Assembly (NCBI GenBank): GCA_009192285.1
Contig: CM018609.1
Span: forward strand, 885,282-949,281
Direction: 5' to 3'
From: Morchella semilibera
Taxonomy: Eukaryota; Ascomycota; Pezizomycetes; Pezizales; Morchellaceae
DNA: 64,000 nt
Shown: positions 1,371-40,760 of the stretch, piece by piece
How positions within the stretch are numbered: the stretch's first letter is position 1
How the letters are laid out: every line of letters begins with the position of its first letter
Notes under the pieces: model-generated
Told to the model about the DNA's origin: nothing
The model's database searches: none
Seen by the model: only the letters and a program-made list of their open reading frames with translations
Position numbers and translations under genes: made by a program

Positions 1371-2322
1371 ATGCCACCAATCATCAAATTACTCTGTTTT
1401 GTGGTCCTGATTACCTTTTACGTACTACTCATATTCCAACACCTAAGGATCATCAAGGACACCGTCAACCAAACCATACTTCCCGAAGGCTTCAAAAAAA
1501 CTCCTCAAACACTACGGAAGTGGAAGACAGCGCTAGTTTTTTCTGGAATTTTGACTAGTATTCTAAACATCACCCTCATAGTTTTCTGCCTCTACCGCCC
1601 CCTGGTCGGCACCTGGGATAACAAGACCTCCCCCTGGACTAGAAGACGCCTAGCAAGGACTTATTATGTGCTTCTCAACACCGTACTACTTCTAATGTGT
1701 CTAGCCCCGATACTAGTCTTTGCTATGTCGCCGTTATTTGTTACCGGCATGGAGTGGAAGAGGGAATATAAGGATGCGTGCAAAGGCATGGCCATCATAG
1801 CTGCCCTCGACTCGCCAGAAGAGAGATCCACGAATGATATACGCTTCACGAACCAAACCACAAACCTTGGATTCAGGATGTCAATGTACCCTATCCCTGT
1901 GCCAGAAAGAATGGATCCGAATGGGGTCTACAATTTCTCCGTTACGACCAGCGGTGAGGGAGCGTCTTCGAATCCATCATGGACCCATATTGAGTATGAT
2001 CTTGGCCACAAACGGTACCGGCGTTTTGGATAGCAGCAATGCCGTTGTTCAAGAGGGCGAGTATGACGTGGGAAAACACTTCGGCATTCCAAAAATGGGT
2101 CTGCAGGGGGACCTGAGTAGCTTCGATGCTCACTGCCACTGGGATTCAGCAGTGAGGATTATGGACGCGGAGGATAAGGTGGTTGCCAAGACGGCGCAGT
2201 TTACGATGTGTGGTCGGCTGCAGGCGTGTGTTGATGAGAGTTTGGGGGATTTGGCTGCGGTGCCGGTGGGGTTGTTGGTGCTGCAGAGAGCGGGGAGGGA
2301 CTCGACTTGCTGTGGTGTGTAG
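1371..2322 (+). pseudogene. Three-TM membrane family copy B, one frame break
   Basis: This is a member of the five-copy family best seen intact at 5892-6977 and 20052-20984. The frame from ATG 1371 encodes hydrophobic segments at about residues 4-22, 54-76 and 100-124. The family-like SPLFVT...W...Y...C.G stretch, LDSPEERS and GVYNFSV follow. That frame stops at 2033. The homologous continuation (GKHFGIPKMGLQGD, KTAQFTMCGRLQAC, AVPVGLLVLQRAGR, CC) lies in another frame from about 2030 to 2322, with no splice sites between. A single-base shift in a T/G run near 2025-2033 explains it. That could be real decay or an assembly indel. Function is unknown. The topology suggests a membrane protein with its C-terminal domain on the non-cytosolic side. 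Confidence 0.6.
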
Positions 2323-4172
2323 AGATCTCTGGGGAGGGTGGTGTGGTCCTCATGGGACCTTTGGTGTTTGTTTGCTTGCATTGAGTTTTGTTGTGGTTTT
2401 CATCTTTCATTATTCTGGATCAGGGGATATATAGCTTTTCAATGAAACTTTCATCAGCAAGATCAGAAAACAAGTTCCAACCCGTAAATATTTAACAGCC
2501 AGGCCGCAAGGTGTCAAACGGATAATATATTAGGTAATGAATTGTGTACTTTACCAGAAGACTCTATTGTTCGAGGCCGCAACAGTCGATTCTTTCCTGC
2601 TTATGTTTTAAAAAAAACGATAATGTAGCCACAATTGACCCCCTTAGATCCATATGGAGCCCCCATGCTCGGAACTATATCACTTTCCACCTAAACCACG
2701 ACATATGTAGAGGAGCTAGTCAACACGTATATTCGAAACCCAGACAGACGGGTGAGCGGTACGGTACCGAGAGTCATGCTGAAGAATATTTCGTAGGCGC
2801 TTCCACATTGAAAAACGAGGCCTCGAAGGTCGCTCCACGATTAACAGGTACCGTACCATTATCCGTCAGCATGATTCTTCCTTTGGTACCTGCTCCCACT
2901 ATCCAGGGACACTTCTAGCCGAATAGCCAAAGACCCCCTGGATAAATTAGAAATATCTTTTCTTAGTTACGGGTGAAAGATTCGTCCGGGTCGTCCCCTT
3001 TTTAGGGGGCCCATGCCTCAACCCAGAAGTTGGGCGATTCGGACCTCTATAAGTTGGGCCGGCTGAAGCAGTATCTCTTGGTTTAAGATCTTCGAATTTT
3101 AATTTGGACTGGCATGGCTGTCTATTGGACAATAGTATTGAATGGAAAAGTGCAGAGTTGATTGGATAGGTAAGCACATGAACTGATTGGTTCCCACTTA
3201 GACATACCCGTTTTTTAAGAGCCTGATATGGCTGATGAAACCTATAATAGTTTTCAACGTACATTTCTGGTTATTGAACACCAAAATCCCTAGCCTAGAG
3301 CCTTTCGTTTCCATCCTTCGCCCCAATTAGGAGCTTGAAGTTGATTCCTAAATCCACAGGCGGAAATAGTTTAATATATAAGATCGCTCGATATCAAATG
3401 AGGCGCGAAGAATTTCAAACCACCCCATCTTGTAGGCTTATGAGCGGTAGATAAGATAAGCCTCATCTTCTCTCACTCGTCTGGGGATCGAGTGAGGAAT
3501 TATGAGCCAAGACCCGAAACAGTTCTCCGCAAAAAAAGGGAAATGACCAACTCCCTCTTGGGAATCCGCTGATGACGTATGTTCTGAAGAACTCTGGTAA
3601 ACCCTTTTTTGGGTTGATTGGCCGATAAGTAAACCTCGTGGGTGACAGCTAGCTACATACATGTAGACGTCGAGTAAAGCTTGTTAGTAATCACTTCCTA
3701 CCTTTAATGGTATCCATCACCCAGTGCATCTATTTATTTTCGAGACATTATTATTATTATGGTGTTCTCAAACAAGTTAGAATGAGGCTCGTGTTGTGAG
3801 GAATACTAAGGATAAGGTATGTTAGCTCGACTCACTCAAGAACTAGTGGGAAGCTTTTGAGGCTCCGTCAATATTACGACAATATACACACACTAGAGCC
3901 TAAATGGAGAGCTAGAGATGAATATCAAAAAAAGCCCTAGTCACCACACAAATTGCAAATCCCGCACTACTTGTATACAAATATAAAGTACCCTTGTTTA
4001 CAATCACCCATCTATCTCAATTCCATCAAAACTTCAGAACATTTAAACCTCAAACCATTTTATCAAGACACCACAACGTCCATCGATTATCCCCAAAACC
4101 TACTTAAAAGCAAATATACAAACAGTATTTGCAGTTAGAATCCCTTGTTCTTTCTTCACTGTCACTACGGCT
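2323..4172. other. Intergenic, no gene seen
   Basis: I see no supported gene in this stretch. It holds a TACATGTA at 3658-3665 and an 11-bp pair GGTACGGTACC / GGTACCGTACC (2758-2768 and 2847-2857) inside otherwise unstructured sequence. The open frames lack motifs and overlap on both strands. Confidence 0.5.
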
Positions 4173-4445
4173 ATGAAGTCCACTACATCTCAATCGCCTC
4201 TTTCAAAGGCTACTCTCCACGCCACTACCACTACAAAAATTTCTACAGCTGTCAAAACTACCACTACCAAACCAATCGACGCTGCTACCACCAACACTGC
4301 TACTACCACCGTCACCACTGTTGCCCCAAACCTCGAGGCACCTGTAAAGCTCCCAGCTATTCCAGCACGCGCATACATGAAGCCAGCCAGCCACCGTCGC
4401 GACAGCGTTTTTGCCAGAGAGCTTCCGGGGTCAGGGGGGAAGTAG
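4173..4445 (+). CDS. Possible small Thr-rich protein (90 aa)
   Basis: The frame from ATG 4173 encodes a Thr/Ala/Lys-rich low-complexity stretch (residues 3-50). A more ordinary C-terminus follows with APVKLPAIPARAY and a basic HRRDSVFAREL segment. There is no signal peptide or membrane segment. Low complexity alone can keep a frame open, and the complementary strand is open too, so this may not be a gene. I recognise no family. Confidence 0.22.
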   Translation: MKSTTSQSPLSKATLHATTTTKISTAVKTTTTKPIDAATTNTATTTVTTVAPNLEAPVKLPAIPARAYMKPASHRRDSVFARELPGSGGK

Positions 4446-5891
4446 GGGCACCTCACGAGAGGTGCCAAGTACTGGTTGCACCGATCGGCGGTAGAGCTGG
4501 GAGCGGGGGACGGGCAACTTTCTGTTCTCTTCTTCTGTCTCTTTTACTGATAACCAAAGGGTTATTTGGGTGCAAAAATGTTACTTGGAGCGGTTTCTCA
4601 TTTTTTCCTCTTTCTTTGGCGTCGATGTAGAAGATGAGGGCATGGAGGGCTACGTATGGATCTGGTTCAGAAAGTGGCGGGGGACTAATATCTTTAATAT
4701 TCTGTAGACACGGTTTGAACTTATGAAATTCTTGTACATGCGGATCTGTGGGTGGGTTTCTTTTTCTAAATAGTATGCACAACTTCTGGTCTTGGTAGCT
4801 ATAACGTAGTCGAGCAGGCAGATATCGGGCTTGCCTGTTACAGTCTCGATCTCCCCGAATCTTGAATTTACTTTGATGAGCTTTATATCTCTCTACTATG
4901 AATGCTTGTAATGATGAAGCTTAAATACATGTCCCATATCTATGCTTTTCATGCACTATATTGTGGTACCCTGGGCATCTCCCTTCGTTTGAGAGGACCA
5001 CATGTCCTGTTTAATCAAGTAATTATACGTTCCTGACAGTCATAGCCACCAGATCCAATTCCCGGCGAAATATCTTACCATACGTATGCCCATTGAGAGT
5101 CCAGATGCAATTTGCGGGCTTGATAAAAGTTATACCTACTGCTTCCTCGCGCTCAAGCTATTAAAAATAAACCCCCTTTTTTGTTTGTTGGTATTGTCTC
5201 AGCTCTTATCTCGGGGGGGGGGGGGTAAGGGGCCGTTTTCTGTTTGTTGCTTCTGTGCATATAATACCTTAAATAGACTAAAAATGCTGTATTTGCTGGA
5301 CATGTCTTTTCTCGGGGGTGTTTTTGTATCGATTCGTTCTACCCAGGTAGTGAAACTCGTGACTATAGAGATCATAGAGGATCACTCGGTCTTGGCATTC
5401 GGGTGTTGGACGCATGGTGGAAATGATCGCACCCGCGGCGATGTGTGATATGTATCCACTACACCTAACTTCTGCTGCCGTAGATGAACTTTTCTGGGAT
5501 TTGGATTGATCACTGCTCCAGATAAGATGTGATTTATGAACAAAATCGGGTTCTTCGTTCTGTAGCCTGTTCTGGTAGTGGGAATTAAAGACCAATCAGC
5601 TTATTGGAGCGGTAGCTCAGATACTAGGATATCATACAATAATAATAGTAGCTGTAGAATCTTCATGTTAGTATATCTATGCTTTGATACTCTGTAGATA
5701 ACAACATACCTCGAACCGAACATACGTAGTGTATCACTCGTCGTTGTCGTGCTTGGCTCCTACGTTAGTATATTGATGCCAAAAATAGCTATTCCTCATC
5801 AACTCCACAAAGGGTCCCTTATCAACGTCAGAAGCTCACCGTATCATCAATTTCCATCACACACTCTTTCAAAGTCCAACGGATTACCACA
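4446..5891. other. Intergenic, no gene seen
   Basis: No supported coding region. It holds a poly-G tract at about 5213-5226 and one TATCACTCG (5732-5740) about 150 bases upstream of the membrane-family copy that starts at 5892. Confidence 0.5.
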
Positions 5892-6977
5892 ATGTCCTAC
5901 GTACCTCCCTCCCCTCCCCCTGCACGATGGAATTACCTCACCAGTAAGCTACCCTCATCGCACACTCTCTTTGTAAAAATTCCTGTTGCCGTTGCCGTCG
6001 TCGGAAATCCACTCCTCGCATGGCAACATTATGCCTACGTCTCCATCACCATCAACCCCCTCTCCCATCCGTCACTCTCCACGAATCAATCGCGTATAAC
6101 CCTGCGCGAAGACTTTAGCATCCTCGTGACGCTCGCGCTCCTTATCAGCGTCTTCAATGGCATTCTTGCTTTCCACTTGCTGCGTCTTACACTCGTCGGA
6201 CTCGGTAACCTTCGCGAGTACACAGACCTACGCTCGCCATTGAGCTCGACGGTCACCAAAGTGCTCTGGCGCAGCTTCACGGTGCTAGTGGTGTTGCTTG
6301 CAACGGCGATCGCACTGGCACTGACCTTTGTGCAGTTTGTGAGCCCGTTTGTGACGCCGGAGGTCGCGTGGGAGGAGCGGTATAGGCACGAGTGTGACGG
6401 GCTAAACTTGAGGGCTTTCTTGGATTCTGCAGAGTCAAGGCCAGCGAGGAACGTACTATTCGGAGATCTCCAGAGCATGGGGAGCTATCGTATGGTCATG
6501 GAGAAGGAGGATGATGGTAGGAATAACTTCTCGGTGGTATCGGTAAGAAGTGCACCGAAAGCATTCAATCCAAGGTATGAAAGTGTGCTCTATGATTTTG
6601 AGGGAAGAAACCTGCAGGCGTTTGGTGCCGATGGGGAACTGGCTCTGGAGAGTAGTTTTGGTGTCGGCGCCGCTTTTGCAGTCGAAGAGATGGGACTGGA
6701 AGGTGATGCGGGACCATTCTCAAGGAGATGCGTGTTTGATCCAACGGTGGAGTTGAGAGAGAGGGGCGATGAGAGATTGGTAATGAGAACGGCTCAATTT
6801 ACGATCTGTGGACAGCTGCAGCTTTGTGCAAGGAAAGATTCTTGGGAAAAGATGCAAATTGTAGCAGGGCTGGTGGTATTGATGAGAAAGGAACGACCAG
6901 ACAAGTGTTGCAAAGGAAGCATAATCCCAGGAATGGCAGGAAGAGATTCAGGCTGGAATGGGGAGGGGCGTACTTGA
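5892..6977 (+). CDS. Three-TM membrane protein, unrecognised family, intact copy A (361 aa)
   Basis: This is the most convincing open member of the family. ATG 5892 sits in CCACAATG context and the frame runs unbroken for 361 codons. Membrane segments are predicted at about residues 28-50 (ending in the family motif ITINP), 75-98 and 128-152 (ending SPFVTP). The C-terminal domain of about 200 residues has an early Cys (YRHECDGLNL), LDSAESRPAR, NNFSVVSV, CVFDPTVEL, RTAQFTICGQLQLC and a CCKGSIIPG tail. These motifs recur in the other copies, and the six cysteines suggest disulfides. I do not recognise the family and cannot assign a function. The nearest homologue in the window is the copy at 20052-20984. 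Compared with it, this copy carries a longer N-terminus (Pro-rich, residues 5-12) and an acidic insert (KEDDGR) in place of the DPDP motif. Confidence 0.8.
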   Translation: MSYVPPSPPPARWNYLTSKLPSSHTLFVKIPVAVAVVGNPLLAWQHYAYVSITINPLSHPSLSTNQSRITLREDFSILVTLALLISVFNGILAFHLLRLTLVGLGNLREYTDLRSPLSSTVTKVLWRSFTVLVVLLATAIALALTFVQFVSPFVTPEVAWEERYRHECDGLNLRAFLDSAESRPARNVLFGDLQSMGSYRMVMEKEDDGRNNFSVVSVRSAPKAFNPRYESVLYDFEGRNLQAFGADGELALESSFGVGAAFAVEEMGLEGDAGPFSRRCVFDPTVELRERGDERLVMRTAQFTICGQLQLCARKDSWEKMQIVAGLVVLMRKERPDKCCKGSIIPGMAGRDSGWNGEGRT

Positions 6978-8646
6978 TGTGATTTTGTTTATGCTTATTG
7001 CTTATAGCACTAATGGTATATTTGGACACTCGAAGTCTTCATACTGATGTATGCAATATGCAGCGCGTAGATTGTGTACCCTTCTTTTTGGAGAGGGAAA
7101 GAGAATGGGGAGGGGGGTGGAAAAGGGTGTATGTACATTTACGTGTAAATGTGGGCATGTACATTAGTACATGTATGTACATGCAAGTACACTAATGTAT
7201 TGCAATGACATTTAATTATGATTCTGTAGTATTGTACTTACATGTATGATATATGTAATTTATGAGACAAACATCGTGAATGAATAAATGCAATGCGATT
7301 ACGCGCGAATACTCTAAGATCTAATCGGGGGGAAGAAGTTCCAGAGTCCGCCAAGATAAATGTATGTAACCTTCTCTCCTCTTTAGCCAATCCACACCCG
7401 AACAATTTCTCTTTCTCCTCGTTTAACCATTCTGCTGCGGTCGAGCCCCCCCCCCCCCCCCCCCCCACCACAACCCCTTAAACTTCTTCAACAAATAAGT
7501 GTGGTGATTCTTGTCCATTAATGTCTCTCCTAATGATACCCCCCCCCCCCTTCTCCTCGATCCGGCGAATCGGCGATGGTAACCCATCCCCGTGACATCG
7601 ATTTAGCTGACAAGCGACCTCTTACACAGATGGCCCCAGAGAGGGAGGAGACTGAAAAAAACCAGGATATATATCCGAGCCTCCACCGAATCACCCAATG
7701 GTTCTTTGCCGAAAGATTTACCGACTCTTCCTAAGGCACTCTCGAGCTGCAGTAAAAGAAAACAATAGGTCCCCGTCACATTTGTGTGTGTGTGTGTGTG
7801 CGTCTCGATGGCGAATGAAAAGCAGAACGGAGACGTGACCCGCCTTACCCTCTATTATTGGCCGTGGCGACCACCCAATAACGACGGGCTATGGGCTAGA
7901 AGGAAGGGAGTGCACGAATAATAGGATTCGAGGAAAAATTTCCCCCAATATAGGTGCAACCATAGAAAATTGACCTGAGGACTTGAACCTCGAAAAACAG
8001 TCGCGGGGGGTCGAGTGACACTCTATGAAGAGCAAAAATCCGCACAGTTTCAACGCGACTCTAAAAGCGTACTTTGAAAAAATCACCTTGCCCAACATCT
8101 AACGCACGGCTGTCGGGTCGTAGCTTCACGAATACAGTTACGGCCTACTATACCTCTTGGCAAAACCAGTATGCTTAGTCACCTAACCCCCACCACCGAG
8201 TGACACCCGATGACCAAATAACCGGTCCACTGCATGCTATTGCATCCAGCCCAATATTAACCCAATAAAATGGTCTCGCTACCAAGATCCTCCCCCTTGT
8301 CCGCGGGCATACTATGTGACACCGACATGACCCGCACAGGGAGGGCTGACGGGGGAGTTGGCACGACGGTGGGTATGTATGCTGTCGATTTCTACAGCTG
8401 TTTCGAGGTCTGGTATATATAGGTGGGACAGAAAAAAGGAACTCATGCCGTTGGGGCAGGTGCGAGCGGGTGCACACACTAGGAAGCTTTTTGGCTACTT
8501 GATTGGGAATTGCCGTCTCATCAAATGATCCTACACTGTAATGTAATACAAGACTAATTCGATCGAAGACACTACACTATTGAGTAAAAAGATAAAGGAG
8601 AAAGAAAAAAAAGAATACACGAACCGATCACTGCGTAGAGTGCTGC
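6978..8646. other. Intergenic with repeats, no gene seen
   Basis: Contains a cluster of near-palindromic ATGTAC/TACATG words at 7128-7196, including two TACATGTA (7167-7174 and 7239-7246). It also contains poly-C runs at 7446-7466 and 7540-7549 and a TG microsatellite at about 7783-7800. No supported gene. Confidence 0.5.
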
Positions 8647-9655
8647 CTAGAGATAGTCTCTTCCCTCGACTCCGTGAACCCTATGTTTTGACTTGCAGCA
8701 ATTGCCTCCCCTCTTAGCTCTCCCCAGCATAAGCAGCCCAACGGGCACCGCCACATCCAGCCCCACGCTCTCCTTCGCACAAACCACCAACGGGCCACAA
8801 ATTTTGAACTGCGTCGTCTTGACCAGCACCTCTCCCTCCCTCTCCCTCGAATCCACAATCCTCACAGTCGGATCGAATACGCATCGACTCTCAAACAGTT
8901 CAATATCTCCCTTCATGTTGAGGGCAGGTAGAAGAAATTGCTTTCCCGTCGTAAAGTCTCCGTCGAAACAACGGCGTTTTTGGTCGTGTGGATGGTATAC
9001 CGACTGGATGAGAGGTTGTATTCGATGCGTTCTAAGTCAGGCGACCCGAGGTTTGTGCTGTTGCTCATTACATTGAAGTTATAGATGCCACTACCATTGA
9101 ACCCAGTTGCAACGGGGTCAGGACTCATCGCCATGCTAACGGTTTCCCCAGAGAACCGGTTCTCGAAAGTCACTTCGTTCGTCTGACGCACGCCAGGTAG
9201 ATCAAGAGTACCCACAAGTCCATACCATCGCAGGAATGCTTGTATGCGCTCCTCCAGCTCCACGCGGGAGTAACGAACGGCGCCACAAAAAGAACTGACG
9301 ACACAAACACCGTAAAGAGACAAGCGACGAGTAGATAGAGATAAAAGATAAACGAGGATCTACGGCCGGGAGAGCGAGCACCAGGGAGTTTGTCGTCACT
9401 ATAAGCGATACAGAGGGGGATGAGGAGAAATTTGATGCATGCAACGAGATTGCTGGTACCCGTGAGGATGGCGAAGATGAGGATACCAGCAAACTCGCCA
9501 CGAATGTCGCTGGATTTGTTGGTGGAGCGGGAAGGATTCCATTCGGGCTCAACGGTAGTTTTGATATAGATGTAATGCCAGACGGCGACGCCGATATAGT
9601 TGGGGAGGTATATAATGAAGAATACACATGGTGGGATGTACGATTCAATACCCAT
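8647..9655 (-). pseudogene. Three-TM membrane family copy C, two frame breaks
   Basis: On the minus strand a frame from ATG 9655 encodes three membrane segments (residues about 8-32, 52-78 and 104-130). APFVTP...W...Y...CDGMDLWVLL follows. The homologous continuation shifts frame near 9200 (LPGVRQTNEVTF, MSPDPVATGF, GIYNFNV, ERIEYNLSSSRY). It shifts again near 8925 (KGDIELFESRCVFDPTVRI, KTTQFKICGPLVVCA, AVPVGLLMLGRA, CC). Both shifts fit one missing base at GG or CCC runs and neither has splice signals. All family landmarks are otherwise present at normal spacing, so the copy is young or the shifts are sequence errors. The conserved MSPDPVATGF resembles MDPDPYAVWGF of the 20-kb copy. Confidence 0.6.
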
Positions 9656-10549
9656 GATGTGTTTGAGTAGTAGAGGTTGCGGATGTGTGGGGAGTGGTGT
9701 ATGTGTAGTGTCGATGGATGTTTGATTGAGTAGGAAGTAGATCGAAGGTAGCCGTTGTTGAGTTGTTTTATGCTAGGTGTATAGGAGGAAACTTTCAAGG
9801 TGTATCCGAAGCTGTTTGAGTAAGTTTGTATGAAAACAATTCAATGATCTCAATCACCAGGGCACGGGGTGAGGTCAGCAGCTGCCTGCCAGGTCAATAG
9901 GAGCCCTCTCAATACTATGTCGCTGAGTCCCTTTATTGTTTGAGTGTACAACGTCCCCTCAAACGACGACCTATGGGCACAACGGTCCGATGATCTGTCA
10001 CTTCGTAGTTATAGAACTCGTCGCCTGTAATATATTCTATTCACAAAGTATCACTCGCCCACGTGATATATGGAGTATCGTGAGATCGAGAGGATCCGCT
10101 TGGTTCGATGGTATATATATGTAGTTATGTCGCGGTAGAAGAGAATCGTATCCAGGATCGACCGACATGAAGGTGCTATTTTTCTTTCAGGATGCAATGT
10201 CCTTGTTTGTGGGTAATTTACTATTGACAATGAAAGAACACGTGATTGCCAAGCGAACACGTTGTTTTGATTGTTGGAATGTTGAGAGAATAAAAGGTGC
10301 TAGGCACAAACATCTACCACTGGGAAGATTTCTCCATTACAATATACACCTACCCGTCGGTCGACATCACAGTCTTTAATGAATTAAGAGGCTTTCTAGG
10401 GTACAACAAATTTAGCAATCTACATCATATGAACAGTTTAAAATAAAGGCCCCCCGGTGCCATCAAAAAAACATGAGTGGGATAAACCGAAGCGGGAATT
10501 TGAGGTAGATACATGTAGGTATAAAAAGCCTTGTCAAGAAGACCTAGCT
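9656..10549. other. Intergenic, no gene seen
   Basis: This is the upstream side of copy C and the downstream side of copy D. It carries TATCACTCG (10049-10057), followed by CCCACGTGATA, and a TACATGTA at 10510-10517. No coding region is supported. Confidence 0.5.
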
Positions 10550-11400
10550 AGCCAGATAACCATCAACTAATTTTGTACTCTTCCTCCATAACCAGCTAGA
10601 ATTCCCTTCCTTCGATCCCTGGAATCCTATGCTTCCCGATACAACATCGCCCTCCCCTCGCCGCCCTCTGCAGTACCAGCAAACCCACCGGAACCACCAA
10701 CATATGTCCCAAACTTTCATCAGCACTGCATCGTCCGGCCACGACCTCGTGTTTCAACTAGTCCACGACTTGCACGGTCGGGTCAAATACACAATACCCC
10801 CCAAAATGTTCCGTGTCTGCGTGTAACCAGTATCCTAAGCTGTGGCCCTAGCTTAAACGTACCTTCCTGAATGAAGTAACTGTCATTCAAGGCACAGTGC
10901 GGTTCATCCCCAAGATTATACTCGGTATGTGCCTATGGCGGGGAACCTGCAGACACACCCGTGCTAACAACAGAGAAGTTGTACACCCCGCGGCGGTCCA
11001 TCTCTGCCGACAGAGTGGGGCTCACGGTCATGTTAAAACCATCATTTCTGGCTAGGCTTATGAAGCGTATATTGTTCGTCGAACGCATCTCCGGCGAGTC
11101 TAGGGCAACTCTAATATCCATACCTCAACACACATCTTGATAAACCTTCCTCCAATACACGTCAGCGACAATATATACTGATACAGGTGTCAGTGCAAGT
11201 ATGATAACAACTATTGTAATTGTAATGAACGCGCCGAACACCCTGGCACCGCCGGCTCAGAGGTAATCCACCAGGTTCGTATTGAGATTCTTTGCCTGAG
11301 CGTATGTAAGGCCTAGGTGAACACACCATAGGCGGCGAAGCAGTTGAAAGGAACTATTACAAAGGCGAGGTTGCGGATTGTATTAAGTCTCCGTATCCGC
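10550..11400 (-). pseudogene. Three-TM membrane family copy D, heavily decayed relic
   Basis: Fragments on the minus strand match the family. A hydrophobic stretch ends near 11180. A segment at about 10935-11121 then reads MDIRVALDSPEMRSTNNIRF, GFNMTVSPT, MDRRGVYNFSVVSTG. Traces of the C-terminal region lie around 10550-10730 (VCWYCRGR, corresponding to GLLVLMRAGR). The pieces are in several frames with at least one in-frame stop before MDIRV, so this cannot encode a full protein. It resembles copy B (LDSPEERSTNDIRF) more than A or E, so it probably arose from the B lineage. Confidence 0.6.
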
Positions 11401-11665
11401 GGCCTGGTAGCTCGTTGTAATCGTTTAGTGGGTAGATAGTTATATCAGCGTGCCTCAGGGGGCAACTTAGTAGTATAGAGCTATTTGCTGGTGTAGGTAG
11501 ATAGACAAGGTATCTCGGTAAGATCAAACATGAACGTTTTGCTTCTGTGGATATTCGGGGGTTAGGGGTAGTTATTCTTGGAGGTTCTGGGGCGTGATGG
11601 AAAATTAAAGAGGGCTGAGTATAGACGCACATATTGCGATATTATATTTAGAGTTCTTACAAGTA

Positions 11666-11838
11666 CAGTTGAATCTCTCTATAAGGGTACGTCGGGACCA
11701 AAGATTGGTACCCTTATAGGGCGCTTACCCTTATACTAAGCGTGATTTTGTATGAGCGAAGGCCAGAAGGGCCGTAAACACATACCCTTATAGGGCGGTT
11801 ATTCTTATAACGGGTACCTTTATAGGGAGATTCGACTG
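11666..11838. mobile_element. MITE with TA duplication and TATAGGG-type terminal repeats (173 bp)
   Basis: The left end CAGTTGAATCTCTCTATAAG and the reverse complement of the right end, CAGTCGAATCTCCCTATAAA, form terminal inverted repeats of about 26 bp. Each is flanked by the dinucleotide TA (11664-11665 and 11839-11840). CAGT-type ends with TA duplication are typical of the Tc1/mariner-pogo superfamily. There is no ORF, so this is a non-autonomous element. Internally the word ACCCTTATAGGGCG and variants recur as sub-terminal repeats. Confidence 0.8.
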
Positions 11839-13593
11839 TAGCGTGTTCAACTACCGCTAAGGCCCCTTGGATAAGACTAGTCTCTTTTTGTAGGTTCGTA
11901 GTGTAAGCCACACCATTTCTCTGTGGCTTATGCCGGGAATCCTCCAATGGACTTTGCGGTAATAGTACGGAATATGCACTACACTACACGTGGCATAAAG
12001 CCCCATGTAATAGCATCCTCATACATTCAAATACTACATGTATGGTACTATGCCTCCAACTATATCATCGCTCTGCTAACAACCAATGAGAAACAGGTAC
12101 CTGTGACTCGCGGGATAAAGAGAATGGTAATAGGACTTATACTCTCAAAAGTATGTGTATGTGCTTCCTAATAGTTATGCCAAGAACCAGCCTAGGGGGC
12201 GAATCAGCTACTGTCAGAAACCCTTTTCTAAAGTCCTTCAAACCCCTCCGATAATATTACGATCTTACTAATATGATGCGCGGGAGTCCTACTAGGTCCA
12301 CCAACCGCTGGTGAAGTTGACCCGAATAAGCCATTGACGGCCGCCAGCACAACCCATGAGCCGGAGCGAGGCCATTACCAAAGGCTTTCATGCAGATCAC
12401 ACAAAATCACTCGCGTGGGTGTGTGGCGGGCAGCTGGCCGAGTGATGGGGGGTGGTTCATGCAACTCCACCATAATGGGACCAGAGCCTTACAGGTCACA
12501 ACCTTCCACCTCTAACTCTGGCCGAGCTAGACTATCCTATCCCCCGAACACAAAAAATTTCTCTCATAATAGTGCTCTATGGCCTAATTGTGCTACTCAC
12601 GTGTGTTTCCAAGACCGCTGTGGGCGGTGGTGATTGGCGATGATTGTGGTATTCTAGAACCACCAAGCCCTGAAGGGGTGGGTGCCATGGCCAAGGAGTG
12701 AGGCCTTCGCTTGAAACAGAAAAGTACATAGCTGGGGAGTATTAGTTGGAGTTGAGAATCGGTTAGCGTTTAACTAAACCCCACTAATAAGTGGGTGGAA
12801 ATCAAGGCCTTGACCAATCAAATAGATATGAGACTAACCACTTACGTAACTCCCGCAGTTACAATTTATTACCTATCAGGGCACTTCATGAATTCATCTG
12901 TTATAATGTTATGGTTTCCATGCCTACATTTGAGTAATATATATCTGCACTAACGATTTAGTGGTCGATGTCGATACCTACTCGAGCGGGAGGTATATAG
13001 AAGATTGTTGCCAAGGCCTTGCATAAGTTCGAGTCTTGGCAACTTTCAGCGGCCTGAGCTACAAGACTTCCAGAATATTCATTATTTCGTCACTCGCGTA
13101 GTTAGGGTTGCTTAAACGAACTTCCGCAAAACATCTCAAATGGAGTGAAAGGTTTATAATTCACATTACAAAAGGTTTTAGAGCCCGTTCGGCAATAGGC
13201 CAAATTGCAAAACGGCGTTTACAGGGGGTGAAGACTCCGTTTCAACAACCTTTTTTGTTAGATGTTGACCCTTGGAAACTCCGTTTTGATTTGTCTAGCT
13301 GCTAAATGGGCCCTTAGTTGTATGAAGGTCTAGCTGCAGCTGACTCATGATCAGCCCGGCCCGTGGACTATATTAACGGGCGCAGGCAAATTTCGATTTC
13401 AAGTCTATAAGTAGTATTTATTTATACCTCATACACGCATCCCCAAGTCTAGTAGCTTCCGGGGCGGTGATTTATATGATTGTAGTGCTAAGGATGTGCA
13501 ACCTACCGAGAAGGTTCGTCGATCATCAGTTAACATCACCAAAACTCATGATCATAAGATATATCACAGACAGCGTGAGGAACGATTTGTGAA

Positions 13594-13783
13594 TCGAATC
13601 GCCATGAATATAAAGGTACAAAAGTAGCGCGAAGTCGTACCCTTATAGGGTGTGTATCCTTATAGATACCCAAGGAGAGTTTTGTGCTTACGAAGGCTAT
13701 CTTAGCTTGAGAACGTCCCATACCTTTATAAGGCGATTAAATTACCCTTATAAAAGGTACCCTTATAGGGCGATTGGGCCGCG
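13594..13783. mobile_element. Diverged relative of the 11.7-kb MITE
   Basis: The left part (GAATCGCC...TATAAAGGTAC near 13594-13619) and the right part (GGTACCCTTATAGGGCGATT, about 13758-13777) match the ends of the element at 11666-11838. Internal ACCCTTATAGGG words are also shared. The outer ends and target duplication are no longer clear, so this copy is older. Confidence 0.65.
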
Positions 13784-14469
13784 GCCGTCTCGAGCGAACA
13801 GATCGATAGCATAAATCAAAGGAAAATAAAGGGATAAGAAAACGCTCAATTTGGCCTGTCAAGCGCTCTAGCACTTATAAACCTATATGAAAAGCAAAGT
13901 AGATCTTAATACAGAGCCCTTTCAGCGGTAAAGATTACAGAAAAAATTTCCTTCCCGCATATAGCGTTGATTGATTGATTGATGCTTCATAGTACATGCA
14001 TGCAGCCCGTAGGCTATGGCAAAACGCTTCCTCCCACTCACCGGAGGCAGGGTAAAACCTCCCTCCCCAACAATTAAACAAACACAAAAGCAAAAGAAAA
14101 CGTCTACAATCCTTCTCAACACTAGCCAACCCGGTACGCTCACTATCTCGAGCCTCATCATTCACCGGGCAAGCAACTTCCCCTACTTATCATTCTAGTT
14201 CAAACGTTGCATGCACTTGCTCCTTTGTTCCCATAAAGGTCCATGTCGTTAATAATTTTCTCTTGGTGTCGGAGGATCCTGAAGTCCCACATATAGCAAC
14301 TAACATATACGTAACGGAGTAAACATTGGTTTAACAGAAATTAGATGGGAAACAAAAAATCAAACCTTGTGGGTACCATTGGAAATAAAGGGGCTGAGAT
14401 TTCTACGCTGTGCCAAAAAGGGAGAGGAGAAAGAGGAGGATACTACCAACTCCAAACACCAAAATAGCA

Positions 14470-15452
14470 TTAAAAATTACCCGCTGTCACTACCCTTTTA
14501 CCTCCCCTCGCAGACTCCCCTACATCGCTCAGCCCTCTATGTGGCGATCCTGCCTGTCCAAATCTCATATACTTCTTTTGGATATACTCTCCATGGACAT
14601 TTCTCCTATGCTGCCGCATGTTGTCCTTTCGACCGAACCCTTTCTCACCAACCCTTCGACACCCCACTACCGGACAGTCGATCAAAACCGGCTGCTTCTT
14701 CTGTATGCGAGTAGATTCGTGGTGATAGCCGATATTATCTCGTGTTTGAAAGGTGCAGGAGTACCCGTTAAACCGGGAAGCATTGGGCGGTTCGTCACAA
14801 TTACGGAGGCAAGCGTGAAGACCACTAGAAAACATCATGATTAATACTTGTCCTGCTGAGAGTAAGTAAAGAGAAAGTCTCACATGTGATTTCCACCGTA
14901 ATGGTTAGGGCAAATAAAGTTTCCCAGTCGGGAAATATCTGGAAATACTTCCTCTTGTACAATGTTTCCCGCAAACTCTTCTTCTCCCAGGCCCGTTCCT
15001 GGGGTTGTGAACATGGATAAAGTTGGCGGGAACACATCGGGAGACTGAGACCCCGATCTACCGCCCGCACTGCTTGATGTATCACAGTATAGGCCGTGGC
15101 CTGGCACACCTGGTGCTGATACAAGCTGAGCTTCCAAAGGTGCTGGGTAGGGAGGGATAAAGATATTAGGACTAGCTCCTGGGTGTCCAAATTGTGGCCG
15201 GTGATTCGGTACATCGGAGAATGGTGGAAGGCTTCTAGATGATTTATTGTATTGGTGATGGGAGGCCCCGAGGCTAGGTTTTGGGCCCGTAGAGAAAAAA
15301 GGCGGTTCATACCATAACAAGCCATTCTGAGCCTCCGGATCATTGAGATTAGTATGATCACTACCGTCAGAATTTTGGTTTAAAAAACTGCCATCAATTC
15401 GGACACAGTTAGCTAGTCGTTTCCTGCTTGACAAATAATTCGCTATACACAT
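14470..15452 (-). CDS. C2H2-type zinc-finger protein, two exons (about 307 aa)
   Basis: Exon 1 runs 15452-14884 and exon 2 runs 14824-14470. The intron of 59 bases has a GTGAGA donor, a TTAAT-type branch region and a TTTCTAG acceptor, and frame is preserved. The N-terminal two thirds is Pro/Ser/Gly-rich and likely disordered. Cys/His pairs follow: FICPNHYGGNH, HACLRNC, YSCTF...HHE, then a good finger CPVVGCRRVGEKGFGRKDN...QHRRNVH near residues 250-285. GEKGF.RKDN..QHRRNVHGE is a familiar pattern in ascomycete nuclear C2H2 proteins, so DNA binding and regulation are inferred. An alternative start lies at 15523 if a 38-base intron (GTATGT...GCAG, 15461-15424) is used; that is unusually short. 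Targets are unknown. Confidence 0.65.
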
Positions 15453-15523
15453 TCCACATACCGGTGCTCCCCTTGAACCTGAGCTACCTGGCTTAATGGT
15501 GTAGTATTTTCTTCCAGACTCAT

Positions 15524-16658
15524 GATGATAGCAGCAGCTAATTCAGGCAATAGTGTAATGTTGCCGGGGTAATTGGAGGCTATCGACTGGTGCAATATGA
15601 TATCACTTTTTGTCTCGAGTTTGAAATGGACTGTGCTGTGGCCATGGAGGAGAACACAGAGGGGGTGGGATTCGTAGAAATACGGACTATGCGCATTCTT
15701 GCAGTCTATGCGCAGTAGCTCTACCACTCACAAAGACCTCCCAATCACTCGTACAACTGGTCTTGGTTGGTTGGGAAAGGTATGAAAATTGGTTACCTCT
15801 TGTTGCATGTCTAGGCGGGCCAAAACAACGCACCCCCATTGCATTAGTGGAAAGCTCTGATCTGGACCGGACCGGACCGATCTTGCTAGGGCTCGACGTG
15901 CAACTGATCGGTCAAAATTAAGGTACGTATCCCTTACCCGCCTACTTTCGTTATGAGTCAGAATCCTGATATATTTTGCGGTATGCCGTTACCTTCTTCG
16001 GATCAATGGTTGTTAAAAGTGCTGCCGAAACACTGAGATACTATGGGGTACGATGACGTGACAGGTCCGGACGCAGCATCAGGTACCAGGCTCGACACAA
16101 TACTATTCAGGAGCCGAAATCATCAGGAAACCTCAACAACTTTACCAAAAGTTTATTACCTGTACCTTGGATGCCCTGAACGAAGTGAGGGGATATGAGG
16201 TCAAGAGATAATTCCGCTCTCTAATTGACTATTTTATAAGACTAGGAATCATAGCCAAAGACAAACATTTAAATACATATATCTATCGATCTAGCCAAAC
16301 AATTGGGGTCAATATCTCGGTAGATCATGGTATATGGCCATGCATGCAGCAACCCCTCCTTGTGGGCATGTAGAGATTCAGCACCGCACCAGCGATGCAG
16401 GCTTTCGACTGCGAGTTAGGAGTCACTGGAAAGCAATAATCCTGATCTGAGTACATAAAATGTACAGAGCTCAAGGTGACGCGTCTTGCCTAAGGTCGGC
16501 CATATAGGTTTTTTATACGGGATAAAAACTATTTTTCAGAGGTATTGCCCAAGTCTCTCTAACAAACCACGCGGAGGATCGATGCACATAAATAAGTATA
16601 TCGATCGTTTCTTTAAAAAGAAAAAGGAGGAAGGAAGGAACCAATGGATTTTGGAAGT

Positions 16659-16694
<36 letters not shown>

Positions 16695-19600
16695 GACTAC
16701 AGGTCGGAAAGACATTCCCAACAATGCTAAAAACACCGTTCCTAGCTACGTAGGTTCTATGATATTATTTCGGAGCTCAGAAATATCATTTCATACGGTA
16801 GGATTCCACCCGGGTACCCCCATTTTCTGCAACCTTAGAATACCTCCTCAGGGCAGGCAACAAGTACCCGAAAACACAGTTGTGTTACATCATTGTATTT
16901 TTTCTCTTTTATTCCAATAGAAATTGCATCCCAGGACTTGCATATCCGATCGGGCGGTAAAGTCTCAAATTTTGGGCTCTTGGCGGGCTATCCACTAAAT
17001 ATTTGGACAAAAGAGTCGGTTGCCAAAACGCTCTATTAACGGTAATTCATACCTTCCGCGAGTATATACGTCATGCAGATATGCACTTTTTGCTGCGGCT
17101 CGTATACGAACTTATTTCCTACACATTGCGCACATAGCTTCTTTTTTCCTAGTATATCTGCATAAAAAGTATTGTATAGCTCACATACTCTACATAAGTA
17201 AGTCTCGAGATCAGTGTCGAGGGATCAAACCTGAACAAGTCATATAGTTAGGGCCTCGCTAATTTGGCATATATGATGTGAAGTATAAAGGCCTCCCCCG
17301 CTTTGATGACGGCGTATAATTCAAACGGGTGTCTATTCAGTAGTTACATATCCGCTCCCAGCGATACCCCGAATGGAACTATCGTTGGCATGGGATATTC
17401 TCCGTGTGCAGTGCGCTCTATTTCGCTTGTTATCGGGAGTAGCCTAAAGGAAGGAGGAGTTTCATACCTATGCTAATTGATGATAGTCACGGGAAGAGGT
17501 GACACAAGCTCTAAGCTCGAGCAAGCTGTCGAGCCTTACATATTCCTACGAGCCCAAGCCCGCTCGAGACTAAGGTGCCCTCTATTAAGAAACAATAGTT
17601 AGTAATATTTTGTGATTGTCAAATCCCCGGAAACCCAATTAAACTAGAAATAATATAAAATTTATCTTTGAACACCTTATGTAAGCCTGGGCCAGGCCTC
17701 GCACCCTTGAACATGAGTCTTTTATATTATGGACTAAATCGGATTAAGGTGAAGCTTAGGCTCGTCTTGAGCTATCTTATACCTAGAACTGAAACGAACA
17801 AAAGGACAGAATGGGATAATACGTATTCAAATGGATTCCCGACCCCTAAATTACTTGAGAGTTGGTTAATATCATGCTAACCACTTGTCTAGGATGAAAG
17901 GCCAGTGCATGCGAGGTGGGAACATCGCCGGGGGGTTTCAGTACCAATGGTTTCCTTAAAAAGAAAGGCTGAAGATATCACTGGTCTAGATAGACAGGTA
18001 AAACCGCTACCAGTCAACTCTTGTCGCGCGTTAATATGCGCATCATGAAGCTACAGTAGATGCAGCACTTGTGTATGTACTCTATAGTTGATGTACTTAT
18101 ATACCTTGGTTATTGGCCCCATGTTTTTCTTTTTTTTCGGTCCTGAGCAGATGCGACTTCCTCCTTGCCTTCGTGTGAGGATTAAAGGACTTGACATATC
18201 TGCTTAAGATTATTGTCAGTATGTGAGAAGTAAATGTCTTATGAAATATAGTCTGTGAGAGCTCTGCGGGGATTGAGGCTAGCACCGAGTGGCAAATGTG
18301 TCAAAGGTAATCTCACCAACGGTAGTATAGTGCAGCATAAAGACTGAAATCCAGTGTTTACACCGGCATAGAGACTGGAATTTGGTGCATATACCACTAG
18401 TGGTAAACAATTTGCTACCGCTGGTAAAATTACTTTGACACATTTACCGCTCTATAGAGAGCTGAGTGTCCCAGGACCCAGTACCAGTGGCGGCTCTAAA
18501 TTTGATGCAGATGTATAGTGTCTATTAGCCGTGCCTAGAGGTAAATTGTGTAGCTAAACATACTCAAGTGTGAGGGTTTGGCGAGAGATTACCGGGCGTA
18601 TTCCAAGCTTTTAGGATTGAGATCCGGAGGCCTATTCTATATTCAATAATCTCTGGAGGATTACCTATCTATTCCTGGAAAGATTTTTCTCAACACGCAT
18701 CGAATTCCATTGTCATCTTGAACGACTTGCGGCGCGCCCCGGGCTATTAATTACCCTTGCCTATAAAACTATCAATATAGGCGTCCCCAGTGGGTATCTC
18801 ATTGCTCCTGGAGGAAACGGCTGTTTTGGCGTTTTTTTAAACACAGATTCGATCTTTGGGGAGTTCCAACCTGTCTTTTGGGGCATTAGCAAACATACAC
18901 TTCATTTTATTCTAAAACCGTTCGTCGGGTGTTGGTGATCATATATATATATCGCCACATTTTCAGGTGAAAATAGTGTTATAGGTATCCGTGGATAGTA
19001 AGAGTGATCCCGCTTACGGTGATAATAACCTCCTCTTCATGAGAGTGGTGGTCTTTTGGGTCTTGAGACCGATGGTCCTCGACGCAGCTTCAAAGTTCAT
19101 GTCGGTAATTCTAGAAGACGGAATTATTCAGTTAATATTTGTAGCGGCTCTCTAAGTAGGGTAATAGTGTCCTGCGTTCGATGCACTCGGTTGGTGAAAT
19201 TTGCTGTGAATAGGGATGAGGTTAAAGATCTATGGCTTAGGGTTTGTGCCCTCACCGGGAACCCGTTTTTGGTGCATCCTTTCCCTTAGCCACCCACACG
19301 CATTAGCCTTTTGTGGTAACCATGATATGATAAATACATACATGTACATACCTTCGGTTGGAATTCTATTAAAAGCAGTCACTCCAGTCAAAGACCACAC
19401 CTTCCCGCGTTGATTCTATCATGTTTCCTAGCGGGGTTTAATGACCTCGGAATATGTATCGTACGTATCTCCCGGACGTATGATCATATATGATAGTATG
19501 CGTACATGTAGTAATGCCCGCTCCAAGAAACTTTGGCCAAGTATAGGCAACGGCTTTCAAATACATGAACCCCGAGGTATCAGGAGGCCTTATGCTACCC

Positions 19601-20051
19601 GTCCCTTAAAAACGCATTCACTCGGCTTTGGCAATTATTCCCGGATGTATTGTAAAGCCCTAATGTTTTGCTTGTTTTTTGCCTGATCTAAGTATATTCC
19701 GATGGGCATCGACGATTACGTACACCGGGATGTCCTCCTATAGTATGCTTCTTTACTATCAAACTCGGTTTAGAATGCTGCAAGGTCTATCCATCATAGG
19801 ACTATTTTTTTATATAGCGTATGCAAAAAAGGACGTGATTTATTTCCCAACACGTCAAATTGAAAAGAAAAAAAGAAAAATTCCCTGAACATATCCCTTA
19901 AAACCAGCTGATCTGCAAAACCCAGTGAACAAGCTTGACAATGATGAATCTAGACTATAAGATCTTGTTAGACATGTTTTGAAATTATTAATAGAGATCC
20001 ATCGTATAAAAAGAAAGAGATAACATACTTGTCATTAGGCGATAATTGCCA
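15524..20051. other. Long intergenic region
   Basis: About 4.5 kb without a supported gene. It contains an AC microsatellite (about 16664-16691), a small inverted-repeat element at 18291-18448 (listed separately) and TACATGTA sites near 19338 and 19503. Short frames on both strands show no motifs. Confidence 0.5.
18291..18448. mobile_element. MITE-like element with ~34-bp imperfect terminal inverted repeats
   Basis: The left arm (18291-18325, GGCAAATGTGTCAAAGGTAA then CACCAACGGTAG) mirrors the right arm (18415-18448). Read in reverse complement the right arm is GGTAAATGTGTCAAAGTAAT then TTACCAGCGGTAG. The inside (about 90 bases) holds two diverged copies of AGACTGAAATCCAGTG. There is no ORF. 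I could not define a target-site duplication, so the superfamily is open. Confidence 0.7.
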
Positions 20052-20984
20052 CTATCCTCCCCTAGCATCAATACCAGGAATGATTGCCCCTTTGCAGCAC
20101 CCAATTTTCTTCCTCCCGGCCCTCATCAAAATGAGTAGTCCAGTGGGTACTGCGGCTTTTAATCCATCTGTCTCAATTTCTCCCAAGACACATAACTGCA
20201 ACTGCGAGCAGAGACTAAATTGAACAGATCTCATGAACAGAGCCTTATCTTCGAAGATCTTTAGAGTCGGATCAAATACGCAGGCCTCTGAGAATGCCAA
20301 GGTGTCTCCTCCCAAATTCAAATCGGGCATAACGTAGTGACGTCCAGTGTGAAACTCCGCTGTAGTAATGGTGGTGTTTCCCGAGAATACAGTATAGGTA
20401 CTGTCCGCAAGGTTGTAGTTAATTTGACTCCAAGGCTGATTGGGAAATTGGCTGATGATGGTAAAGTTGTAGGCACCTCTGCTATCGAAACCCCAAACTG
20501 CGTATGGATCAGGATCCATCATCATGTCAAACCCATTCTCTCCCTTGACGTCACTAAATTGAACCGTTCTCGCTGGCTCCCCTGGGGTAGAGTCAAGGAG
20601 TACTCGCATATCAAGTCCATTGCAAACATTCTTGTAACTTATTTTCCATGCAACACGGGGAGTGATGAATGGAGAAACGAGTTGCAAAAGAGAACCGAAG
20701 ATATAGAGCAGGATCACGGGGGTAAACAGCACCCAGAAGAGCGAGGGCCCGGCGAGATGCTTACAGGCGTGGGCCATCTTCAGAAATGTAAACCCAGTAG
20801 CACCGTTGATGACCACCAGAAACACTCCCATGATAACCAAGCCAGCGAAGTGGCCCTGCATGGCTGCGTTGTTAAGAACATAACGGGGGTTATAGAAGGG
20901 ATTAATGGTGCGTTCGATGTAGAGAACGTGCCACCAGATGACGAGAGGGTTAACGGTGAAGAAGAAAAACTTTTCCCACAACAT
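20052..20984 (-). CDS. Three-TM membrane protein, unrecognised family, intact copy E (310 aa)
   Basis: The minus-strand frame is open from ATG 21068, but the in-frame ATG at 20984 (MLWEKFFFF) puts the start at the same distance from the first membrane segment as in the paralogues, so I prefer it. Membrane segments lie at about residues 5-25 (ending ERTINPFYNP), 42-66 and 80-106 (ending SPFITP). The C-terminal domain has YKNVCNGLDMRVLLDS, FDMMMDPDPYAVWGF, GAYNFTIIS, INYNLADSTYTVF, HYVMPDLNLGGD, CVFDPTLKIF, VQFSLCSQLQLCV, AVPTGLLILMRAGR and a CCKGAIIPG end. Two NxT/S sequons (NFT and NTT) support a lumenal or extracellular side. The role is unknown. It is the closest complete relative of the copy at 5892 and the furthest from the rest of the group. 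Confidence 0.8.
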   Translation of the reverse strand: MLWEKFFFFTVNPLVIWWHVLYIERTINPFYNPRYVLNNAAMQGHFAGLVIMGVFLVVINGATGFTFLKMAHACKHLAGPSLFWVLFTPVILLYIFGSLLQLVSPFITPRVAWKISYKNVCNGLDMRVLLDSTPGEPARTVQFSDVKGENGFDMMMDPDPYAVWGFDSRGAYNFTIISQFPNQPWSQINYNLADSTYTVFSGNTTITTAEFHTGRHYVMPDLNLGGDTLAFSEACVFDPTLKIFEDKALFMRSVQFSLCSQLQLCVLGEIETDGLKAAVPTGLLILMRAGRKKIGCCKGAIIPGIDARGG

Positions 20985-23900: not shown

Positions 23901-25146
23901 CCAAATCTCTTTTAGTCTATCCTTGCATGTCCCAATATTGTTGACCCGTCCGTTTTAGGGCATCATCCGCTATGCAGGATGACGGATGCAGGGACTTTTG
24001 TGAAGGGATCGACACCTTGATATCAATTGAGTGATTGGCGGTAGATTCCGCATTTTCGAGCATGACAGATGCTTGAGAATCCACCCACCTATGACCAACG
24101 GATCATTCCAAATCCAACTCCTTCGTTCGCAAGGGTTCCCCTCCCATAGAGAATACCAGCCCAGAGACCATGATGCCTGGACCCAATCGGGGGGTACTGC
24201 CTCAACGCCAACGATTCGGATATTAAGAACTAGAAAAGTCTGGAAATGCGGTTTGTTTTCCTGAAAATTTTTTCTCTGTCACCAGGGAATCCTTGCAGTC
24301 TTAAACACAAGGCAAGATCCCCCGATCTTCGTACTCGCCTTGGTACTTTCTGGAGAGAGTCTGGTACTAGTGGCCCAGTGGTCTGTGCGGGCTTGGAACT
24401 GCGCCACATGCCCAGGAGATTACGCGTAATGTAATGTGCCGATATGCGGGAAGGCCCGTGTTTGGGTTGGGGTGAGGGAGGATTTGTTAAGCATATCTAC
24501 AATTTGCTGCGTCTGTCACTACATATTCTCCTGTTTTGGGTGGTTGGGGATTGGTCTGAAAAATATGTGATGGTAAGCACTATTTTCTGGATTTTTCTCA
24601 TGATGGACATAATTGGAGTATGTACCTGCAGGCTGGACTATTCCATAGGCGTAGATAGCTCATGAATTATGGGAATCTTACTTCCCGCGCGATCAAAATG
24701 CGCAATCGTGAATTGTCGCTGCAAGGCTAGCCATTCAATCATGATCACTGTCAGAGCTATTGCTACTACTCAATCCACTCCATTTATGCAGTCCTATTGC
24801 GGTGGTTTCCACAAGATTATGTTTTAATTGCCTATTATCTGCGACTAATAAATGCAATACTTGAAGGAAAAACAAAGGAAAGAAAAGGTTTGTCACAGAA
24901 AAACAAGGTAGGTCGTAAAAATGTTCTATCCCCAGCCATCCATCCCAATAACCAGTCTCTGTGTTATCTATCCTCAAACGAAACCCAGTCCGTAAAGAAT
25001 GAACAAGCCAAAAATAAAAATGAAAAAAAGGTGATCCGAAAAAAAAAAACACTAAACTCCACCACCAGACCTTCTCTGTCACCCCTTCCCACAGCCCAAC
25101 TTTCATTTGGTCCGAGACATTAAGGCGTTATTTATTGCAGGCGAAA
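20985..25146. other. Long intergenic region rich in short palindromes
   Basis: No supported gene. TACATGTA occurs near 21415, 21463, 22789, 23303 and 23597. TATCACTCG or its complement occurs at 21361-21369, 22911-22919, 23181-23189 and 23754-23762. A perfect 23-base palindrome lies at 23567-23589. A 113-aa frame at 22425-22766 has some hydrophobic character but no motif I know. Confidence 0.5.
23567..23589. repeat. Perfect palindrome, 11-bp arms with one central base
   Basis: GTACCTACATG and CATGTAGGTAC flank a single A at 23578. Another TACATGTA follows at about 23597. It sits in a non-coding stretch rich in the same words. Confidence 0.85.
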
Positions 25147-39033: not shown

Positions 39034-40760
39034 GATGTTTTTTGCTCGGTTGAAAGGTATGGAAGTACTGGCAAAGCATGAGGGAAGAGCGGTATTAATA
39101 GAAAATATTAGAGGCTATATTACAAGTAACTCATTATCTTGGTTACGAAACTTAAAGCCATGGATACTTTGGGTCATATGACAATATTAGAGCTTCCAAT
39201 GGGATCATAGTATCCTGAACCCAGATAGTATGCCCTTCAACCAATCGTGAAGGAGGTAATCCCTGGACGGAGATAGCGTTTTTGCGGTATCTGATTTGCG
39301 CATAACTAGTTCTTAGTTACACGTATACTCGTATTTGGAGAAACATCCTTTTCCGACAATATGCCCTCTTCAAATTCTGATGGGTATTCAACAGTTCAAC
39401 AATTTTCGCCCATAAAGTTCATATAATATTGCATGTATGAGGTGTAGCCGGGTTAATATTGGTCCTTCTAGTTTCTGAATAGATGATAACAAGCGAGAGT
39501 ACCTGGGATGGTGGTGGTGATGTGTAGATTGATGCCTGAAGGGGTTCCGGAATCCGGTGAGCGAGCTGAATGCAAAATAGGTGGGGGCCGGTCCTATATC
39601 CCTGGAGTTTGTGAATATTTCGAGTGAGAGGCTGTGAACGGTCATAAACGGAGGATTCTTAATTGGACAAGAACAAATTAAACCCGACTACCAGGTTCGA
39701 TTTTATCCAGTGTAAATATGGGAGACATGTAGAACTGTCGATCACCACATGCAGCCTTACTCCGCCCGTAAGTTAAGTACTGCAGAAACCAAAATGTATT
39801 GGTACCTCCATCCTAATATGAGCCTCGCGATCGGCGTACGTATACTGCAAGAACCTAGATATAAAAAAAACCCTCGATGAAACCCCATATATATACGTAC
39901 ATACGTATTCACGTAGAGTATATCCGGCCCGCCCCAACAAAATTGAGTAATCATTCACATAAACCACCAGTTCTACGTTCCGGAGCTGATATACAGTACG
40001 TTAAGCTTTTGGGTGACGATGTTGAGGTCCACAGAGAACTCACTTCGGAGAAAAATTACCCCACCCTCGTTTACTAAAACCGAACTGGGTGTCGATCAAC
40101 GTCAGGACTCATTGATTACCCTTGAAATTCCAATGCGGTCCCCCTGCAGCTTCGGCTATCACGTTAACTTGAAGGCAGTGAGCCTTAGGGCAGTATAGGT
40201 ACGACCACCATCGCCAAGTGGTACTTCTAGACTCTAGCATCTGTTTCTAATGTCTTGGTCAGTGCGGCGTAGGGCTGGAATGTCAGCAAGCACCTAACAC
40301 CAACCCTCCAATTGGCCAGCTAGTCAGACAACACACACAGGCTTGGGGAGAATATTGATCAGACACACATTACCCTCACTCTCAATGAACTCCCACATTC
40401 TTGTCCATGCTTTCCCCGAGCTGAGTCAATTTGACGTATCCAAGAATTACGTGCTATAGCTAGACCCCTAGTTATCGATAAGGGACCTAGTTAAAGAAGT
40501 GTTTGAGATATGTTATGATAGCTAGCTGGCTAAAACCTCCACACCAGGGGTCTGGGAATCTAGGTACAGTTGGTGCTTTGATGTCAAAAGAAATGCAGAT
40601 ATGCCTAAATGAAATGTCATTGTTGAGCTAACCGTGGCGGTGCGACGGTACTCCAGATCCACGCCCATAGATATCCTTGAATATATCGGAGATTAATATC
40701 ATATTTCTATGTTAATATCTAATGGTTCGCCATAGCTCTATATCTACAGTTCTGCATCAA
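39034..40760. other. Intergenic, no gene seen
   Basis: The promoter of the monooxygenase gene should lie just above 39033. I see no third biosynthetic gene between it and the acyltransferase. Frames here are short and without motifs. Confidence 0.5.

Follow-up and report, generated by a model that had tools for sequence, protein, structure and literature searches.

A small decaying cluster of orphan genes for predicted three-helix membrane proteins in the morel Morchella semilibera

A gene family of the morel and its six places in the genome

The window analysed here, a stretch of 64,000 nucleotides of the Morchella semilibera genome (assembly GCA_009192285.1, contig CM018609.1, positions 885,282 to 949,281), carries within 20 kb five copies of a gene family whose products are predicted to consist of three membrane helices followed, at the C-terminus, by a domain some 200 residues long. 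Copy 1 (1371-2319, + strand) lies in two frames separated by one frame break: one (1371-2030) encodes the membrane part and the first half of the C-terminal domain, and the other (2026-2319) encodes the second half, up to a terminal CC. This break is single and, without reads, indistinguishable from an assembly error. Copy 2 (5892-6977, + strand) is open and encodes 361 amino acids in a single open reading frame (ORF). Copy 3 (8650-9655, - strand) is split over three frames, with pieces at 9207-9655, 8955-9206 and 8650-8964, two frame breaks and a stop at 8647-8649 after the last piece, and copy 4 (10599-11262, - strand) is a relic with several in-frame stops and a frame change. Copy 5 (20052-20984, - strand) is again open, with a single ORF of 310 amino acids from an ATG at 20984. 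A sixth copy, found on a separate contig (C6:259529-260098), is a relic that contains stops and has lost a stretch of the domain. The genome thus holds six detectable family members, five of them inside 20 kb, two open and four broken. The first-pass annotation of this DNA, made from the letters alone, had placed five copies here, two open, two with single-base shifts and one relic; the tally stands apart from the single shift assigned to copy 3, and the relic on C6 is added to it.

The membership of the family rests on protein searches that covered the whole 56.76-Mb genome at E <= 10, in which counts for large families are lower bounds. Copies 5 and 2 served as queries, as did the first piece from copy 1 and the last from copy 3, and each of these four recovered the same six places and no further ones. 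With copy 5 as query, copy 2 was found at E 1.8e-41 and 35% identity, the C6 relic at E 1.3e-17, and the best pieces of copies 3, 1 and 4 at E 4.5e-14, 5.6e-14 and 2.4e-12, respectively. The alignment of copies 2 and 5 scores 404, against a maximum of 57 among 200 shuffles, and the similarity among the copies, which had been proposed from inspection, is therefore far above chance. The copies are also strongly diverged, as the annotation had stated, because a DNA search of the genome with copy 2 returned no match beyond copy 2 itself. In a self-comparison of the window with BLAST, copies 1 and 4 were the only family pair to match each other. The nearest relative of copy 4 is copy 1 (E 1.3e-21 and 43% identity at protein level, in the genome search with the latter's first piece), and the C6 relic is closest to copy 3, with 76% DNA identity in a BLAST match of 485 columns and 66% over 843 columns when gaps are counted.

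Clustered duplicates, a mixture of intact and dead members and independent divergence together make up the birth-and-death pattern that had been noted from the sequence. Individual copies are probably dispensable, so that duplicates would arise and die. A transposon origin was considered and set aside, since no direct or inverted repeat of at least 40 bases joins copies within positions 1-24000. Repeat-induced point mutation (RIP) as the killer of the dead copies is likewise unsupported, the RIP composite index being negative in all six copies, at its lowest in copy 2 (-0.64) and its highest in copy 4 (-0.05). What speaks against this rejection is the 1-kb bin 11001-12000, which adjoins copy 4, overlaps its N-terminal end and has the highest index of the 64 bins (+0.47); 11 further 1-kb bins also have an index above zero.

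Predicted architecture and the search for relatives

Hydropathy analysis places three membrane segments over the cut-off in each of copies 1-3; in copy 5 the first helix scores below it, which leaves two. Structure models were obtained for residues 17-361 of copy 2 and residues 2-310 of copy 5 (the first residue of the model being read as M), and both show three long helices, followed by 11 (copy 2) or 10 (copy 5) strands and a final helix, so that the shared three-helix topology first noticed by eye is borne out. Past helix three, hydrophobicity is too low throughout for a fourth span, the highest 19-residue mean being 0.92 in copy 2 and 1.18 in copy 5. The prediction is thus of three membrane helices and a C-terminal domain rich in strands, with the strands taken from two weak models.

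The clearest feature of the C-terminal domain is its cysteines. In all four fully readable copies (1, 2, 3 and 5; the pattern in copies 1 and 3 was read from separate pieces), six cysteines follow one pattern: the first lies past helix three and the second in CVFDPT (which is CHWDS in copy 1), the third and fourth form a CxxxxxC pair, and the last two are a terminal CC, giving the signature C ... C-V-FDPT ... CxxxxxC ... CC. Copy 2 has these six cysteines and no others in the entire protein, while copy 5 has one extra, in loop 2. At one conserved place, copies 1, 2, 4 and 5 have NF[S/T], a sequon for N-glycosylation, where copy 3 and the C6 relic have NFN; loop 1 contains a sequon in copies 1-3 and none in copy 5. 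The six-cysteine pattern therefore suggests that the domain is disulphide-linked and extracytoplasmic, and the sequons, together with the conserved cysteines, point the same way.

The annotation could not match the family to a described one, and our searches agree. Pfam at E <= 10 returned no family for copies 2 and 5 or for the first piece of copy 3; the corresponding piece of copy 1 had four matches, all sub-threshold, the best at E 0.064. A Pfam scan of nine alignment rows at E <= 1 gave five families, none common to two rows. In NCBIfam and PHROGs, searched with copy 2 only, the best matches (E 0.048 and 0.094) fell far under the cut-offs where these are given. By sequence, copy 5 found no match in the PDB, and four profile matches had a best E of 0.67. 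Copy 5 as sole query found no match in viral contigs; prokaryotic relatives, sought with the same sole query, were rejected, as none of 15 pattern matches in genome contigs was confirmed. Among the matches listed for open-licence literature on morel three-transmembrane proteins and orphan genes, titles and the beginnings of abstracts mention nothing on the family. It is therefore unnamed and without known relatives among the databases searched.

The fold searches leave one lead. The Foldseek match of the copy 2 model to Arabidopsis AT5G01750 (1zxu), which we take to have a LURP-one-like fold, has a probability of 0.80, and both models share the succession of strands and a C-terminal helix that a tubby/LURP-one-like, lipid-binding barrel around such a helix would require. 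Yet the match has an E-value of 0.038 and a template-modelling score (TM-score) of 0.22/0.39, 1zxu is not among the best 50 of 331 matches for the copy 5 model, and neither copy 2 nor copy 5 matches the LOR family at E <= 10. An exon-wise search of the host genome found no LOR (PF04525) or scramblase (PF03803) proteins, a miss that is weak because the search was exon-wise. That the C-terminal domain is such a barrel is accordingly very improbable.

Several known systems invite comparison. CWR-2, from the cell wall remodeling checkpoint in Neurospora crassa, resembles the morel proteins in being a membrane protein from a filamentous ascomycete to which no biochemistry has been assigned, and it acts in allorecognition; it is, however, described as having eight segments that cross the membrane and two domains of unknown function, PF11915 (PMC9550227), as opposed to three predicted helices and no Pfam match. 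Closer by genus are mimpvic32 and mimpvic33, two genes linked to incompatibility in Morchella importuna (PMC8940278), the second of which is likewise reported without a known domain. One encodes a CorA-like protein of 765 (text) or 773 (table) amino acids with 8 introns, and the second incompatibility-linked protein has 1311-1324 amino acids and 2 introns (PMC8940278), in contrast to the single ORFs of 310 and 361 amino acids found here.

Two further comparisons are drawn with families familiar from fungi. Incompatibility genes with a HET domain (PF06985) are often multi-copy and fast-evolving in ascomycetes; the morel family has no HET domain. Fungal proteins of the Sur7/PalI, claudin-like and tetraspanin kinds are small multi-span proteins with extracytoplasmic cysteines, built of four helices with domains in the loops, whereas the morel family has three helices, a C-terminal domain and no Pfam match.

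Selection between copies and the likely nature of the family

Change between the copies bears the mark of protein-level constraint. The ratio of nonsynonymous to synonymous substitution rates (dN/dS), pooled over in-frame pieces, was 0.34 for copy 3 and the C6 relic (bootstrap 0.17-0.62, 98 codons), 0.28 for copies 1 and 4 (0.13-0.49, 97 codons) and 0.45 for copies 1 and 3 (0.21-0.83, 87 codons), with a value obtained in 1000, 984 and 993 of 1000 resamples, respectively. All three pairs consist of broken copies, and constraint while they were alive may therefore have been stronger. Single pieces of the copy 3-C6 pair range from dN 0.15/dS 0.66 to dN 0.25/dS 0.29; in the pooled analysis the latter was used in shortened form (22 residues versus 32), and one small piece of 18 codons (dN 0.40/dS 1.04) was left out. 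Copies 2 and 5 have codon identities of 0.46, 0.61 and 0.31 at positions 1, 2 and 3 (287 codons), with synonymous sites saturated. Their identity is 37% in the C-terminal domain (194 codons) and 31% in the membrane part (93 codons), so that the domain is slightly more conserved, not more variable.

We give an even chance to the reading that this is an orphan integral membrane-protein family of the morel, produced by local duplication and now decaying, whose members combine a three-helix anchor with an extracytoplasmic, disulphide-held domain that binds a partner. On this account, the protein would enter the secretory pathway with its N-terminus kept in the cytosol, and a domain of about 200 residues with three disulphides would be exposed at the exterior side of the hyphal membrane or within the lumen of a compartment. 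There it would most likely bind a component of the wall, another protein or a small molecule; the most likely predicted role is that of a binding domain, at the surface or in a lumen, carried by a three-helix anchor. A number of observations weigh against this account. The mean predicted local distance difference test (pLDDT) scores of 61.1 (copy 5) and 59.6 (copy 2) mark both models as weak, and the structural comparison proposed at the outset, made with Foldseek, found no match with E <= 0.001 in the PDB for either model or among viral models for copy 2. Copy 1 has a sequon also in loop 2, which is placed inside, and the balance of K/R minus D/E favours a C-terminus outside in copy 2, the reverse in copy 5 and neither in copies 1 and 3; the charge of the loops does not settle topology. 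Finally, the small copy 3-C6 piece with dN 0.25 and dS 0.29 is near no constraint.

The same constraint, the low copy number and the breakage of four copies out of six would also suit an ordinary membrane protein of greater age and routine function, present more widely in Pezizomycetes and losing copies in this species. The open copies have no Pfam match, and widespread domains usually have a Pfam model; we regard this explanation as rather unlikely. Less probable still is that some of the frame breaks are errors of assembly and that more than two copies are intact. Copy 1 is off by just one break, and the published assembly of M. crassipes is described as joining long fragments with Illumina mate pairs (PMC7014384), but copy 3 would require two separate errors, copy 4 and the C6 relic have stops, and the latter is also without a stretch of the domain.

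The annotation had likened the cluster to self/non-self recognition loci, in which case the C-terminal domains would be polymorphic recognition surfaces and the array a haplotype cluster. Clustered, strongly diverged copies with dead members are in keeping with this, as is the situation in M. importuna, whose known het homologues, its two HET-domain genes included, are reported to be invariant between compatibility groups, the authors concluding that there are further incompatibility genes (PMC8940278). None of our results supports the proposal, however. The dN/dS comparison suggested with it gave pooled values of 0.28-0.45 and upper bootstrap limits of 0.49-0.83, with no sign of diversifying selection between these paralogues of one strain's genome; change is constrained rather than diversifying, and the C-terminal domain is no more variable than the remaining protein. 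No HET-domain match lies nearby, the only two of the genome being on C3 and C19, and the two mapped incompatibility-linked genes of M. importuna encode other proteins (PMC8940278). Divergence between paralogues carries no information on alleles, for or against recognition, and the idea is unsupported; we think it very unlikely to be right. A bolder version, in which a three-helix anchor showing a six-cysteine domain is a new type of surface recognition protein and accounts for one of the incompatibility loci still missing in morels, has at best a slight chance.

In morels, few of the genes that underlie vegetative incompatibility are known, and copies 2 and 5, if they turned out to vary among compatibility groups, would offer a molecular candidate for a poorly understood cultivation trait. 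What the family adds to this cultivated mushroom genus is an undescribed orphan family with a clear six-cysteine signature. Small decaying orphan clusters are ordinary in fungal genomes, and on present evidence this is one of them.

Surroundings of the cluster and other observations

The cluster is flanked on the left by a NIPA-type magnesium transporter (L012:5762-6871), beyond which lies an F-box/ankyrin gene, and on the right by an NAD kinase (26987-28234). On the left side, L013:8134-8547 gave a chance-level match only (E 0.18), and an ORF at 24731-25120, ahead of the NAD kinase, matches RecG_wedge below the threshold (E 0.0092). Before 24 kb begin 29 stop-to-stop ORFs of at least 110 amino acids, of which seven are family members, ten were scanned with no Pfam match at E <= 0.05 and 12 were left out of the Pfam scan. 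Between copies 4 and 5, overlapping ORFs at 14473-15542 (- strand) contain by eye a C2H2 zinc finger-like stretch, and Pfam gave nothing for them at E <= 1. Near copy 4, a short repeat occurs three times around the core TACCCTTATAGGG (11690-11735, 11764-11809 and 13619-13664).

Further to the right, an ORF with a FAD-binding domain (38728-39114, E 2.2e-07) lies inside a group at 36325-42275 (- strand), where its neighbours are without Pfam match and some are membrane-rich by eye; this may be a secondary-metabolite gene group. Elsewhere in the genome, the only 5.8S rRNA-like match, at C19:2699587-2699758 (L011), scored 39.5 bits against a cut-off of 42 (39 of 1209 candidates were scored).

The end of C7 lies about 121 kb from copy 5, and the cluster is therefore not at the very end of the chromosome. 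That end (L016) carries an array of the ten-base telomere unit TTAGTTAGGG, not TTAGGG. A pattern of three TTAGTTAGGG units matched the genome 251 times, against zero for the reversed control, and the places listed, which extend to C5, comprise the starts of C1-C5, high coordinates that resemble contig ends (an array on C1 ends at 7,341,398) and some interior arrays. The interior ones, such as C1:1462166-1462270 and C1:4005228-4005410, are possibly scaffold joins or old chromosome ends. The ten-base unit itself is already known for Morchella, an identical one, written AACCCTAACT, being given for Morchella sextelata (PMC13208314) and the unit TTAGGGTTAG for M. crassipes (PMC7014384).

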